Part shown: positions 51,356-54,686 of the stretch, piece by piece
How the letters are laid out: every line of letters begins with the position of its first letter
Numbering within the stretch: the stretch's first letter is position 1
NCBI RefSeq assembly: GCF_005876955.1
Contig: NZ_SSCL01000004.1
Location: forward strand, 248,001-312,000
From: Sinomonas gamaensis
GTDB taxonomy: Bacteria; Actinomycetota; Actinomycetes; Actinomycetales; Micrococcaceae
Reading direction: 5' to 3'
Length of the DNA: 64,000 nt
Program-made: the position numbers and the translations under genes
Notes under the pieces: model-generated
Told to the model about the DNA's origin: nothing
The model's database searches: none
The model's input: only the letters and a program-made list of their open reading frames with translations

Positions 51356-52381
51356 ATGCCAGCCATCGACCTCCCACTCGCCGAACTGCGTGCGTACCGC
51401 GGAAGCAGCCCACTGCCGGCCGACCTCGACGCCTTCTGGTCGGAAACCATCGACGAGGCCCGCAGCCATCCTCTCAGCCCGCGCTTCGATCGGGTGGAGA
51501 CTCACCTGCCCCTCATCGAGACCTATGACGTCACCTTTGCCGGCTACGGCGGCGACCCGATCAAGGCCTGGCTCCACCTGCCCGCGGCCCAGCCCAGCGC
51601 GGCGGCGGGTGGGCAACTCGAGGCGCTTCCCGCCGTCGTGCATTACCTCGGCTACTCCGGCGGACGCGGCCTCCCGCATCAGAACACGATCTGGGCCCAG
51701 GCGGGGTACGCGATGCTCGTTATGGACTCGCGCGGCCAGGGGTATGGCGGGCAGCTCGGCGAGACGCCGGATCCGCACCCGAGCGCCGGGGGAGTGAGCT
51801 TCCCGGGGCTCATGACTCGGGGCATCCTCGACCGGCGCACCTATTACTTCCGCCGCCTGTTCACTGACGCGCTCCGCGCGATCGAGGCTGTGCAGGCGCA
51901 TCCGAGGGTGGACGCCTCGCGCGTCGTGGTCCAGGGCGTCTCGCAGGGCGGCGCGCTCTCCGTCGCCGCTGCGGGGCTCGCCGCGGGAAGGGTCGACGGC
52001 GTCATCGCCTGCCTGCCCGACGTCAACTTCCTCGCGGACTACTCCCGAGCCCTCGACGTCGCCACGACCGGCCCGTACCCCGAGCTCGAGAACTACCTCA
52101 AGCGGCACCGCGGCGAAGTCGAGGCCGCCTTCGCCACACTGCCGTATTTCGACGTCGTCAACCTCGCCCGCGCCGCGCGCGTCCCGGCGTACTTCTCGGT
52201 GGCCCTCCGCGACACCACGTGCCCGCCGTCGACCGTGTACGCCACGTACAACAACTACGGCGAGTCCTCCCCGGTGCCCGTCGAGAAGTCCATCGAGGAG
52301 TACCCGTTCAACAACCACGAGGGCGGGGGAGAGCACCACGTGGCGCGGCAGCTCGCGTGGATGCGGAAGCTCCTGCCCTGA
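51356..52381 (+). CDS. Acetylxylan esterase / cephalosporin-C deacetylase (carbohydrate esterase family 7)
   Basis: 341 residues. Nucleophile motif GVSQGGALS (Ser about 188), RGQGYGG before it, catalytic Asp near VALRDTTCPPSTVY and His in NNHEGGGEHH. Intracellular deacetylase of short xylo-oligosaccharides in known members. Start chosen at MPAIDLPL; an in-frame ATG 42 nt upstream would overlap the operator. ATG lies 8 nt after TAGACT, compatible with a leaderless message. Confidence 0.92.
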   Translation: MPAIDLPLAELRAYRGSSPLPADLDAFWSETIDEARSHPLSPRFDRVETHLPLIETYDVTFAGYGGDPIKAWLHLPAAQPSAAAGGQLEALPAVVHYLGYSGGRGLPHQNTIWAQAGYAMLVMDSRGQGYGGQLGETPDPHPSAGGVSFPGLMTRGILDRRTYYFRRLFTDALRAIEAVQAHPRVDASRVVVQGVSQGGALSVAAAGLAAGRVDGVIACLPDVNFLADYSRALDVATTGPYPELENYLKRHRGEVEAAFATLPYFDVVNLARAARVPAYFSVALRDTTCPPSTVYATYNNYGESSPVPVEKSIEEYPFNNHEGGGEHHVARQLAWMRKLLP

Positions 52382-52382
52382 A

Positions 52383-52416
52383 TGGTGCTTCTCGCCTGTG
52401 TGGTGCTTCTCGCCTG
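52383..52416 (+). repeat. Direct repeat TGGTGCTTCTCGCCTG, two copies
   Basis: Exact 16-bp copies at 52383 and 52401, directly after the esterase stop codon. Function unknown. Confidence 0.7.
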
Positions 52417-52420
52417 AATG

Positions 52421-52443
52421 TTGCGCCGTCACCTCCGCAGGGT
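52421..52443 (+). repeat. Dispersed 23-bp element, copy 1
   Basis: TTGCGCCGTCA, four bases, then CCGCAGGGT (window spacing). It matches the minus-strand sequence at 63978-64000 in 22 of 23 positions and the plus strand at 63833-63855 in 20 of 23. It ends at the -35 element of the DAHP synthase leader. Confidence 0.65.
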
Positions 52444-52472
52444 TGGCGCGACGGCTGCGGATCCCGTAAGGT
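52443..52472 (+). promoter_or_regulatory. Promoter of the aromatic leader / DAHP synthase transcript
   Basis: TTGGCG (52443-52448), 18-bp spacer, TAAGGT (52467-52472). The leader-peptide ATG is 7 nt after the last T of the -10, so transcription probably begins at the start codon. Confidence 0.65.
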
Positions 52473-52478
52473 GCTCGC

Positions 52479-52532
52479 ATGATCAAGCGTTGGTATGCGT
52501 ATTTTGCGTTGGCTCTGGAGGGCCAAGCGTAG
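52479..52532 (+). CDS. Aromatic leader peptide MIKRWYAYFALALEGQA
   Basis: A 17-codon open frame immediately upstream of DAHP synthase, too short for routine gene calling. Residues 5-9 are Trp-Tyr-Ala-Tyr-Phe: the feedback products of the pathway. Apparently leaderless. Ribosome stalling at these codons would control which downstream RNA stem forms. Ribosome-mediated attenuation of an aromatic gene by a similar leader peptide (AroR) has been described in Corynebacterium glutamicum; this is my recollection and the sequences were not compared. Confidence 0.8.
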   Translation: MIKRWYAYFALALEGQA

Positions 52533-52625
52533 ATACGCGCATACCAACCTTCAGAGCCGACAGGGCAGGGACTCGGTCCCTGCCCTTCGCCATTCCAGGC
52601 AGGCTCTGAACGCGGGGTCTGTCGG
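52489..52625 (+). promoter_or_regulatory. Attenuator with mutually exclusive RNA stems before DAHP synthase
   Basis: Stem A: 52489-52502, which contains the Trp-Tyr-Ala-Tyr codons, pairs with 52533-52548 (14 bp, 2-nt bulge). Stem B: 52511-52521 pairs with 52548-52558 (11 bp, one G-U); its left arm lies in the loop of A, so A and B exclude each other. Stem C: 52550-52558 TTCAGAGCC with 52602-52610 GGCTCTGAA, excluded by B. A GC-rich 11-bp hairpin (52562-52572 with 52576-52586, loop TCG) is the probable terminator. CCGACAG (52557-52563) can also pair with CTGTCGG (52619-52625) near the ribosome site. Confidence 0.7.
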
Positions 52626-52641
52626 AGAGAGACAGGAACCG

Positions 52642-53757
<1,116 letters not shown>

Positions 53758-53850: not shown

Positions 53851-54063
53851 ATGGCTGGATCTGGGGAGTTCGCAAACACTCGCTTCCTCACGGTCGCCGA
53901 AGTTGCGGCGGTCATGCGGGTCTCCAAGATGACGGTGTACCGGCTCGTGCATTCGGGCGAGATGCCCGCCGTGCGCTTCGGGCGTTCGTATCGCGTGCCC
54001 GAGGCTGCGGTCGAGGAGTATGTTCGCCGCGCTGCCGTCGAGGGGCACTCCGAAACAGCGTGA
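53851..54063 (+). CDS. bldC: BldC-family MerR-like DNA-binding protein
   Basis: 70 residues: a single winged-helix domain, FLTVAEVAAVMRVSKMTVYRLVHSGEMPAVRFGRSYRVPEAAVEEYV, the short MerR-like form that controls development in Streptomyces. GAGGAAC before the ATG, and a candidate promoter TTTCAC-18-TACAGT (53774-53803). The bldC-bS22 neighbourhood is conserved in actinobacteria. Confidence 0.93.
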   Translation: MAGSGEFANTRFLTVAEVAAVMRVSKMTVYRLVHSGEMPAVRFGRSYRVPEAAVEEYVRRAAVEGHSETA

Positions 54064-54310: not shown

Positions 54311-54346
54311 GTGAGGCCCGTCCCCGATCGTTGGGGCGGGCCTCAC
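54311..54346 (+). terminator. Terminator hairpin downstream of bS22
   Basis: GTGAGGCCCG-T-CCCC pairs with GGGGCGGGCCTCAC (54333-54346): 14 pairs with one bulged T and a 7-nt loop. No T-run; the tandem array follows 2 nt later. Confidence 0.75.
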
Positions 54347-54347
54347 T

Positions 54348-54533
54348 GCCGTTTCGGGTACACCAACCGCCGCCTTCAGCCGTTTCGGGTACGGCTACTG
54401 ACGCCCTCAGCCGTTTCGGGTGCACCAACTGCGGCCCTCAGCCGTTTCGGGTGCACCGACTGATGCCCTCAGCCGTTTCGGGTGCACCGACTGAGGCCCT
54501 CAGCCGTTTCGGGTACGGCTACTGTGCACGATC
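54348..54533 (+). repeat. Six-unit tandem array with exact 31-bp period
   Basis: Units begin at 54348, 54379, 54410, 54441, 54472 and 54503. Each starts GCCGTTTCGGGT and, except the last, ends C(C/T)TCA; the middle varies among GCACCGACTG, GCACCAACTG, ACACCAACCG and ACGGCTACTG. Lies in a 404-base gap between convergent genes that holds no recognisable gene. Confidence 0.9.
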
Positions 54534-54558
54534 CCCTAAGACATGCCCTGACCCAGGC

Positions 54559-54678
54559 GAGTTGGTGCACCCGAGACGGATTTGGGGGTGAGTTGGCGTA
54601 CCCGGTACGGATTTGGGGCCAGGTGAGTTGGCGTACCCGAGACGGATTTGGGGGGTGAGTTGGCGTACCCGAGACGGG
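54559..54678 (-). repeat. Inverted partner array of four related units
   Basis: GAGTTGG starts at 54559, 54590, 54625 and 54657 (spacing 31, 35, 32). Read on the minus strand each is CCGTCTCGGGTACGCCAACTC (one base over the motif shown here as CGTCTCGGGTACGCCAACTC), closely related to the left array, so the two arrays can pair as a long imperfect hairpin. The last unit ends 9 nt before the 3' end of the HAD gene. Confidence 0.85.
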
Positions 54679-54686
54679 GATGGGGG

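Follow-up and report, generated by a model that had tools for sequence, protein, structure and literature searches.

The window, the whole stretch of 64,000 nucleotides of DNA from the soil bacterium Sinomonas gamaensis that was analyzed, contains the gene aroF for a 3-deoxy-7-phosphoheptulonate (DAHP) synthase, preceded by a short open reading frame with clustered aromatic codons and by a putative promoter (Table 1). The aroF product belongs to class I (PF00793, E 4.4e-81; TIGR00034 aroFGH, 466.6 bits against a cut-off of 173.2). A second DAHP synthase gene in the same genome is of class II (PF01474, E 8.0e-203; locus L149, G000:C12:434434-435726). DAHP synthase is the entry to the shikimate pathway; isozymes and repressors are the usual explanation for how it is adjusted to three end products. 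Elsewhere in the window, a small excisionase-type HTH gene (53851-54063; TIGR01764) is followed downstream by an array (54317-54686) of a unit of about 31 nt (GCCGTTTCGGGTGCACC-type, 54348 onward), with related units in the opposite orientation at 54553-54686.

Table 1. Features of the aroF leader region in window coordinates. Swap test values are the permutations, out of 20000, that equalled the observed pairing; SD, Shine-Dalgarno.
Feature	Position	Strand	Basis or remark
-35 element, TTGGCG	52443-52448	+	sequence; TTGN box 16-19 nt upstream of the -10 element in 80 of 89 homologous upstream regions
-10 element, TAAGGT	52467-52472	+	18-nt spacer from -35; 6 nt before the leader ATG
Leader ORF MIKRWYAYFALALEGQA, 17 codons, predicted leaderless	52479-52532	+	ATG at 52479, TAG at 52530-52532
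Region 1, 5′ arm of 1:1′	52489-52502	+	base-by-base check; swap test 173/20000
Candidate sensor codons TGG TAT GCG TAT TTT (W5 Y6 A7 Y8 F9)	52491-52505	+	near-invariant in 82 unique sequences
Region 2, 5′ arm of 2:3; 11 pairs, extendable to 14	52508-52521	+	base check; swap test 4/20000
Region 1′, 3′ arm of 1:1′	52533-52548	+	base-by-base check
Region 3, partner of region 2 or (52550-52558) of region 4	52548-52561	+	base check; swap tests
Hairpin T, 11 pairs, loop TCG, inside the 3:4 loop	52562-52586	+	base check; swap test 0/20000
Small hairpin H2, GCC/GGC here, longer in some relatives	52589-52600	+	MFE; swap test 145/20000
Region 4	52598-52610	+	GGCTCTGAA (52602-52610) with region 3; GGCAGGCTCTG (52598-52608) with region 5
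Region 5, CGGGGTCTGTC	52613-52623	+	partner of region 4, or TCTGTC (52618-52623) with 52631-52636
GACAGGA, aroF SD region, partner of region 5	52631-52637	+	sequence, fold
aroF, class I DAHP synthase, 371 aa	52642-53757	+	PF00793, TIGR00034

The sequence-only reading had placed a leaderless aromatic leader ahead of a DAHP synthase gene, under a promoter TTGGCG-18-TAAGGT. The frame and the promoter are both present, and among 89 homologous upstream regions the frame recurs in all and the TAnnnT spacing in 88. The two boxes and their spacing are also kept in relatives, whereas the sigma-70 consensus score did not bear the call out: no sigma-70-consensus promoter was found in 52380-52700 at the scanner thresholds, so that the promoter assignment comes from conservation and not from a consensus score. 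The gap between TAnnnT and the leader start codon is 6, 7, or 8 nt in 49, 36, and 3 of the regions, respectively, the chance per position being 1.9% for gaps of 5-8. The sole miss is locus L038, where a second ATG stands one codon further upstream and is itself preceded, at six bases, by TACTCT. Because the middle of the -10 box varies while TA and T are kept, we read the box as a promoter element and not as an SD sequence; an SD-like tetramer precedes the leader ATG in only 7 of the 89 regions. Leaderless initiation at the leader ATG, with a predicted 5′ end, is well supported by this promoter geometry. No Rfam family matched in the window at its gathering score, and four sub-threshold matches fall within 52440-52660.

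The 89 upstream regions were drawn from all 15 genomes examined of the same genus, from the 59 genomes with a match among 149 in a family sample, and from the first 22 named loci (L040-L061), with the aroF starts of some loci set by hand. They comprise 82 unique sequences from the leader to the aroF start and 7 duplicates, some of them the same species in two collections; the leader regions of two same-genus genomes are identical to the Sinomonas humi and S. susongensis records.

Helices and candidate sensor codons of the leader

In the leader RNA, GTTGGTATGC (52489-52498) pairs with 52539-52548 at 10 of 10 positions, and helix 1:1′ continues across a 2-nt bulge with GTAT (52499-52502) on ATAC (52533-52536). 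The Trp-Tyr-Ala-Tyr codons had been taken as the 5′ arm of a 14-bp stem; the 14 pairs hold, whereas the arm begins at 52489, carries the 2-nt bulge, and encloses those codons (52491-52502). Helix 2:3 joins 52511-52521 to 52548-52558 (11/11 pairs) and can be extended to 14/14 as 52508-52521 with 52548-52561. Helix 3:4 joins 52550-52558 to 52602-52610 (9/9 pairs). The proposed mutual exclusion of these three stems, with pairings of 14, 11/11, and 9/9, is supported. Hairpin T, which is the GC-rich 11-bp hairpin of the earlier description, pairs 52562-52572 with 52576-52586 (11/11) and shares no bases with 2:3 in the base-by-base check. The tail of T, TCGCCATTCC, is a broken U-run, and no terminator-like site was found in 52380-52700 at the scanner thresholds; on both counts an intrinsic terminator at T was rejected for this species. 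The statement that no U-run follows the stem is therefore correct here, although relatives in one genus have U4-U6. T may possibly be a degenerate terminator or a pause hairpin. The earlier description mentions a further pairing near the ribosome site and does not resolve helices 4:5 and 5:SD, which were found here. Their registers were taken from folds of the leader RNA, while 1:1′, 2:3, 3:4, and T were checked base by base. Folding of the 163-nt leader yields -89.5 kcal/mol, and shuffled sequences average -57.2 (sd 4.3; z -7.5); 0 of 200 shuffles equalled the leader.

The codon cluster is nearly invariant. When the 82 unique family sequences are aligned on TGG, which is uncounted as the anchor, the following codons are TAT in 80, GCG in 81, TAT in 81, and TTT in 80. 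Across the window's 27 long ORFs whose GC3 is 0.8 or more, 13 of 372 Phe codons (3.5%) are TTT and 32 of 301 Tyr codons are TAT. Since TAT and TTT are kept though rare in the window, the nucleotide is held and not only the amino acid. The 45 class-level leaders described below have 58 TAT against 3 TAC and 44 TTT against 6 TTC. TAT lies in helix 1:1′ here, but TTT lies outside it, which makes slow reading of U-ending codons a candidate reason for the bias. The cluster suggests that the leader may sense all three of Trp, Tyr, and Phe.

The family consensus of the peptide is M..RWYAYF..ALEG-like. Exceptions include CWQAYF (L007 and L041), YANF (L122), and WFTY in Brachybacterium (L059), so that the first Tyr codon is lost naturally in L007 and L041 and the second in L122. 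At L017, a one-base insertion alters the peptide after FSL and keeps the RNA of region 2 and a nearby stop; unless it is a sequencing error, this variant favours the view that the RNA rather than the peptide matters.

Distribution and covariation in relatives

Retention of the short frame in homologous upstream regions had been set beforehand as a test. The aromatic frame passes this test in the family, being present in 89 of 89 family and near-kin regions, with 89 forward and 0 reverse hits when the -10 box is required; at class level 30 of 75 regions have no leader by the definition given below. The core pattern TGGTATGCGTATTTTNCG occurs once each in 45 of the 149 family genomes, always within about 300 nt of aroF, and its backward reading is absent from all 149. 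One record named Sporosarcina beigongshangi (L052) has an Arthrobacter-like aroF and leader, and may be misnamed or contaminated. The aroF match is in two pieces at G102:C1:2819431-2820506 (L148) and G151:C21:9886-10918 (L136), where the leader is still present; the split suggests a frameshift or an assembly error.

Class I aroF was found in 78 of 394 genomes of a class-level sample. With a leader defined as at least three aromatic residues in six codons plus TAnnnT 4-9 nt upstream, the 75 upstream regions outside the other sets gave 45 leaders forward and 0 in reverse. These counts exclude the automated location of 2:3 and T, which gave implausible hairpins in many rows. The motif drifts to YWRFIEAPGGA, also seen at named Mycobacterium and Mycolicibacterium loci, to RRYPYFAQAPGGA, without Trp, in one family, and to QRVYFWF in another. 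Across families the leader ATG is often replaced by GTG, and the promoter spacing and the in-frame aromatic codons are kept. Among the other named actinobacterial loci, in which a species may be represented more than once, a leader is found forward in 21 of 28 and in reverse in 1, against 1 of 29 forward and 2 in reverse among non-actinobacterial loci and 4 of 270 in a downstream-flank control. These locus counts cover the 58 distant loci except L064, which has a leader as well.

A run of 4-6 U follows T in genus g20 (L128, L131, L132, L134, and L135), which sets these leaders apart from those of the Sinomonas genus. The Corynebacterium amycolatum locus (L073) has the leader MRMWRFYFSKAPEAVTI with a U-run hairpin, and a Rubrobacter MAG has the leader MKINFHERFYYRF and a hairpin followed by TTTTTCTTTT; inspection of these two leaders by eye revealed no regions 4 and 5. 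FHERFYYRF and FYERFYYR stand before aroF, beside a U-run hairpin, at L085 (Rubrobacter MAG) and L081 (unclassified actinobacterial MAG), respectively. With similar devices in many actinobacteria, the leader probably represents a long-established means of sensing a shortage of aromatic amino acids.

Covariation was examined by a swap test, in which arms of one genus were compared with cross-genus arms in 20000 permutations. The test took 65 of the 82 unique sequences, from 15 genera, and left out 17 named-contig sequences without a genus label; the region 5 window of genus g22 was placed by motif. The observed pairing was equalled in 0 permutations for T, 4:5, and 5:SD and in 4 for 2:3, 31 for 3:4 (14 with disjoint windows), 145 for H2, and 173 for 1:1′. 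With disjoint windows 4:5 remained at 0, and without the Sinomonas genus 4:5 and 5:SD remained at 0 and 0. Nine genera with at least 3 sequences gave 0 for 4:5, 2 for 5:SD, and 45 for 3:4. The control pairs gave 16700 (3:SD), 19348 (2:SD), 2728 and 6758 (4:SD), and a borderline 1005 (2:5). The genus permutation ignores the relatedness of genera, an effect that these controls address but do not remove. Pairing of region 4 with the SD as a general rule is not supported by its two values.

A 68-row alignment (A1) was also used; the other 14 of the 82 sequences (g17, g20, g22, and g30) mostly have long insertions. Changes on both sides affected 3 pairs of T and 6 pairs of 4:5. For 4:5 no measure was reached in 500 shuffles, and for T the number of such pairs was reached in 35 of 500, cells and score in 0. 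The earlier expectation of compensatory changes in the stems of relatives is supported by the cross-genus swaps, whereas in the 68 rows 2:3 had one both-sided cell, no excess over shuffles, and 3:4 had no both-sided change and no covariation. Both helices are nearly invariant in this alignment, so that their support comes from genera farther away; inspection by eye shows the GTTGG/CCAAC pairing of 2:3 replaced by GTCGG/CCGAC in g17, g20, g22, and g30. Arm swaps across genera support helices 2:3, 3:4, T, 4:5, and 5:SD.

Model of the proposed attenuator and its alternatives

Two hallmarks of an attenuator are found at this locus. A cluster of Trp, Tyr, and Phe codons lies in a short ORF, predicted to be translated, upstream of aroF in every one of the 89 regions, and in the Sinomonas sequence and folds, mutually exclusive helices lie where a stalled ribosome would free one and a finished ribosome another. 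The trp-type hallmark of a U-run terminator overlapping an antiterminator is absent, as T has no terminator-like site and does not overlap 2:3. The missing U-run terminator lowers membership in the trp-type class, not the trp-like working. Quite probably, whatever its output, the leader acts on aroF as a ribosome-mediated attenuator and gauges aromatic aminoacyl-tRNA; in its input stage we have good confidence. The frame, the promoter spacing, the complementarity, and the covarying helices are shown by the sequences; the stalling, its direction, and, most conditionally of all, the output are inferred.

We propose the following course. The mRNA would start at or beside the leader ATG, where, judging from conservation, a ribosome would initiate without an SD sequence. 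If Trp, Tyr, or Phe tRNA were short, the ribosome would stall on W5-Y6-A7-Y8-F9 and cover region 1, leaving region 2 free. Formation of helix 2:3 would then leave region 4 to form 4:5, with the ribosome-binding site of aroF unpaired (ON). If charged tRNA were plentiful, the ribosome would reach the stop codon and cover region 2; without a ribosome, 1:1′ would form. In either case 3:4 would form around T, and region 5 would fall onto the ribosome-binding site (OFF).

Folds of the Sinomonas leader RNA without coding bases follow this course. RNA beginning at region 2, which stands for a ribosome stalled on W-Y, folds into 2:3, T, and 4:5 with the SD unpaired, and RNA beginning after region 2, which stands for a ribosome at the stop codon, folds into 3:4 around T and H2 with 5:SD paired. 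The modelled folds are a coherent switch with a physiologically sensible sign, a reading confined to this leader without coding bases. Across all 82 sequences, a family fold test had the SD more open in the ON state in 4 and in the OFF state in 15, and opening of the SD cost more in the OFF state in 35 and in the ON state in 40. SD openness was greater ON in 18, greater OFF in 20, and the same in 44 without coding bases; with 18 coding bases the numbers were 1, 15, and 66. We therefore rejected these three family-wide calculations, which give no net support, as a thermodynamic proof of SD release. Within the Sinomonas genus (14 sequences) the sign is as expected (0.63 vs 0.34) and is lost with 18 coding bases (0.41 vs 0.51). 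The sign is opposite in the Arthrobacter-like genus g9 (7 sequences; 0.12 ON, 0.44 OFF) and in the 17 named sequences without a genus label (0.10 ON, 0.40 OFF). In the fold of L018 (g9), region 4 (GGGTTCTG) pairs with the complementary ribosome-binding site of aroF (CAGGACCC), so that the SD model would have the opposite sign in that leader.

Granted the attenuator, we give this relay to the SD region nearly an even chance of being the output. The same input might instead end in termination or pausing at T, for which we keep a substantial minority expectation. With the ribosome stalled, helix 2:3 would form against the base of T and hinder it, and otherwise T would act, perhaps with NusG or Rho. 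In 77 of the 82 sequences T does start 3 nt after CAGAGCC, i.e. right after the extended 2:3; U-runs follow T in g20, C. amycolatum, and the Rubrobacter MAG, and AroR of C. glutamicum is described, in the excerpted part of the source, as raising transcription (PMC11802643). In Sinomonas, however, the broken tail and the empty terminator scan speak against this output, and a classical antiterminator is missing because 2:3 and T share no bases. Helices 4:5 and 5:SD, moreover, covary downstream of T, where a decision at T alone would not need them. That both outputs, or some other one, are used is unlikely.

Other readings were also considered. An arrest peptide sensed in the exit tunnel would fit the near invariance of RWYAYF at the amino acid level in the family, but the synonymous sites are as invariant, rare codons are used, and the motif becomes YWRF, YPYF, or WRFYF in other families with the aromatic run kept. 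The L017 insertion, which changes the peptide and keeps the RNA of region 2, points the same way, and only some 5-9 residues would have been made at the sensor codons; we consider this reading very improbable. Even less credence can be given to a riboswitch or a protein-bound RNA with an incidental frame. The leader RNA does fold strongly without a ribosome, but promoter spacing and in-frame aromatic codons persist across families in which ATG is often swapped for GTG, and no Rfam family matches at the gathering score. If a conserved promoter and a small peptide stood there without attenuation, the RNA complementarity would come from high G+C, and the negative family-wide folding tests of the output would agree with that. 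Against it, cognate arms beat cross-genus arms where control segment pairs mostly do not, and the leader fold has the z of -7.5 given above, which leaves this reading improbable.

Returning to the attenuator, response of one and the same leader to Trp, Tyr, and Phe would, if true, be an unusual solution for DAHP synthase. We also consider, as a doubtful extension, that an ancient class-wide leaderless sensor may pool the charging of Trp, Tyr, and Phe tRNA via slow U-ending codons and pass the signal along 2:3, 3:4, 4:5, and 5:SD to the aroF start, having evolved from a terminator-type attenuator whose U-run decayed in G+C-rich lineages. Given the spread in actinobacteria and the natural variants in the sensor codons and the tail of T, direct tests could tell which amino acids are sensed and whether the output is transcriptional or translational. 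The aroF leader is also a point for strain engineering; one step in building a C. glutamicum production strain exchanged aroR together with the native promoter of aroF (PMC7356990).

Comparison with known systems

The E. coli trp and pheA systems have an SD-led leader, an overlapping antiterminator and U-run terminator, and one amino acid that is sensed. Mycobacterial cysteine attenuators with leaderless short ORFs, reportedly described by Canestrari in 2020, resemble the Sinomonas leader in the leaderless short ORF and differ in their cysteine codons and operon. With E. coli trp and pheA, as excerpted, the likeness lies in sensor codons within a leader and in mutually exclusive RNA segments (PMC11802643). 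Translation from nucleotide 1 had been presented as a departure from classic attenuators. It is one relative to E. coli trp, but leaderless leaders are known in Streptomyces lividans, for which the excerpted text lists eight leaderless leader peptides (two Leu, two Trp, Ala, Ilv, Met, and Thr), several of them without a typical U-run terminator (PMC8079986). None of these eight belongs to aroF or to mixed aromatics (PMC8079986). The Acholeplasma uORFC-13-1 motif is a predicted uORF with a Phe codon beside a terminator stem at aroF; compared by its excerpted description, it differs in phylum and in having a ribosome-binding site (PMC8632094). A 2005 survey of actinobacterial leaders, in the part consulted, reports structures at Trp, Cys, Leu/Ilv, and ileS genes; for other pathways it saw none.

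A search for the string RWYAYF gave no literature match, and no earlier description of the aroF leader element was found in the literature searched, which mostly did not extend to subscription papers, so that novelty is unproven. As far as searched, the new points are how the leader is distributed, its mixed W-Y-Y-F sensor that uses U-ending codons, and the helices reaching the aroF ribosome-binding site. The AroR leader and aroF attenuator of Corynebacterium glutamicum were reportedly described by Neshat et al. in 2014. AroR, compared here by description only and from excerpts, has a Phe-Tyr-Phe leader, and aroF transcription rises on limitation of Phe, not of Tyr (PMC11802643). It likewise is a short aromatic leader upstream of aroF in an actinobacterium, with ribosome stalling proposed (PMC11802643, PMC4046766). 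The Sinomonas leader differs from this Phe-responsive system in its Trp-Tyr-Ala-Tyr-Phe run (PMC11802643), in its broken U-tail, and in regions 4 and 5, which extend the pairing to the aroF ribosome-binding site. The kinship proposed from the sequence is thus upheld in kind, with an aromatic leader lying immediately before the class I aroF of an actinobacterium, and the best reading is that the Sinomonas leader is related in kind to C. glutamicum AroR, with a longer relay.
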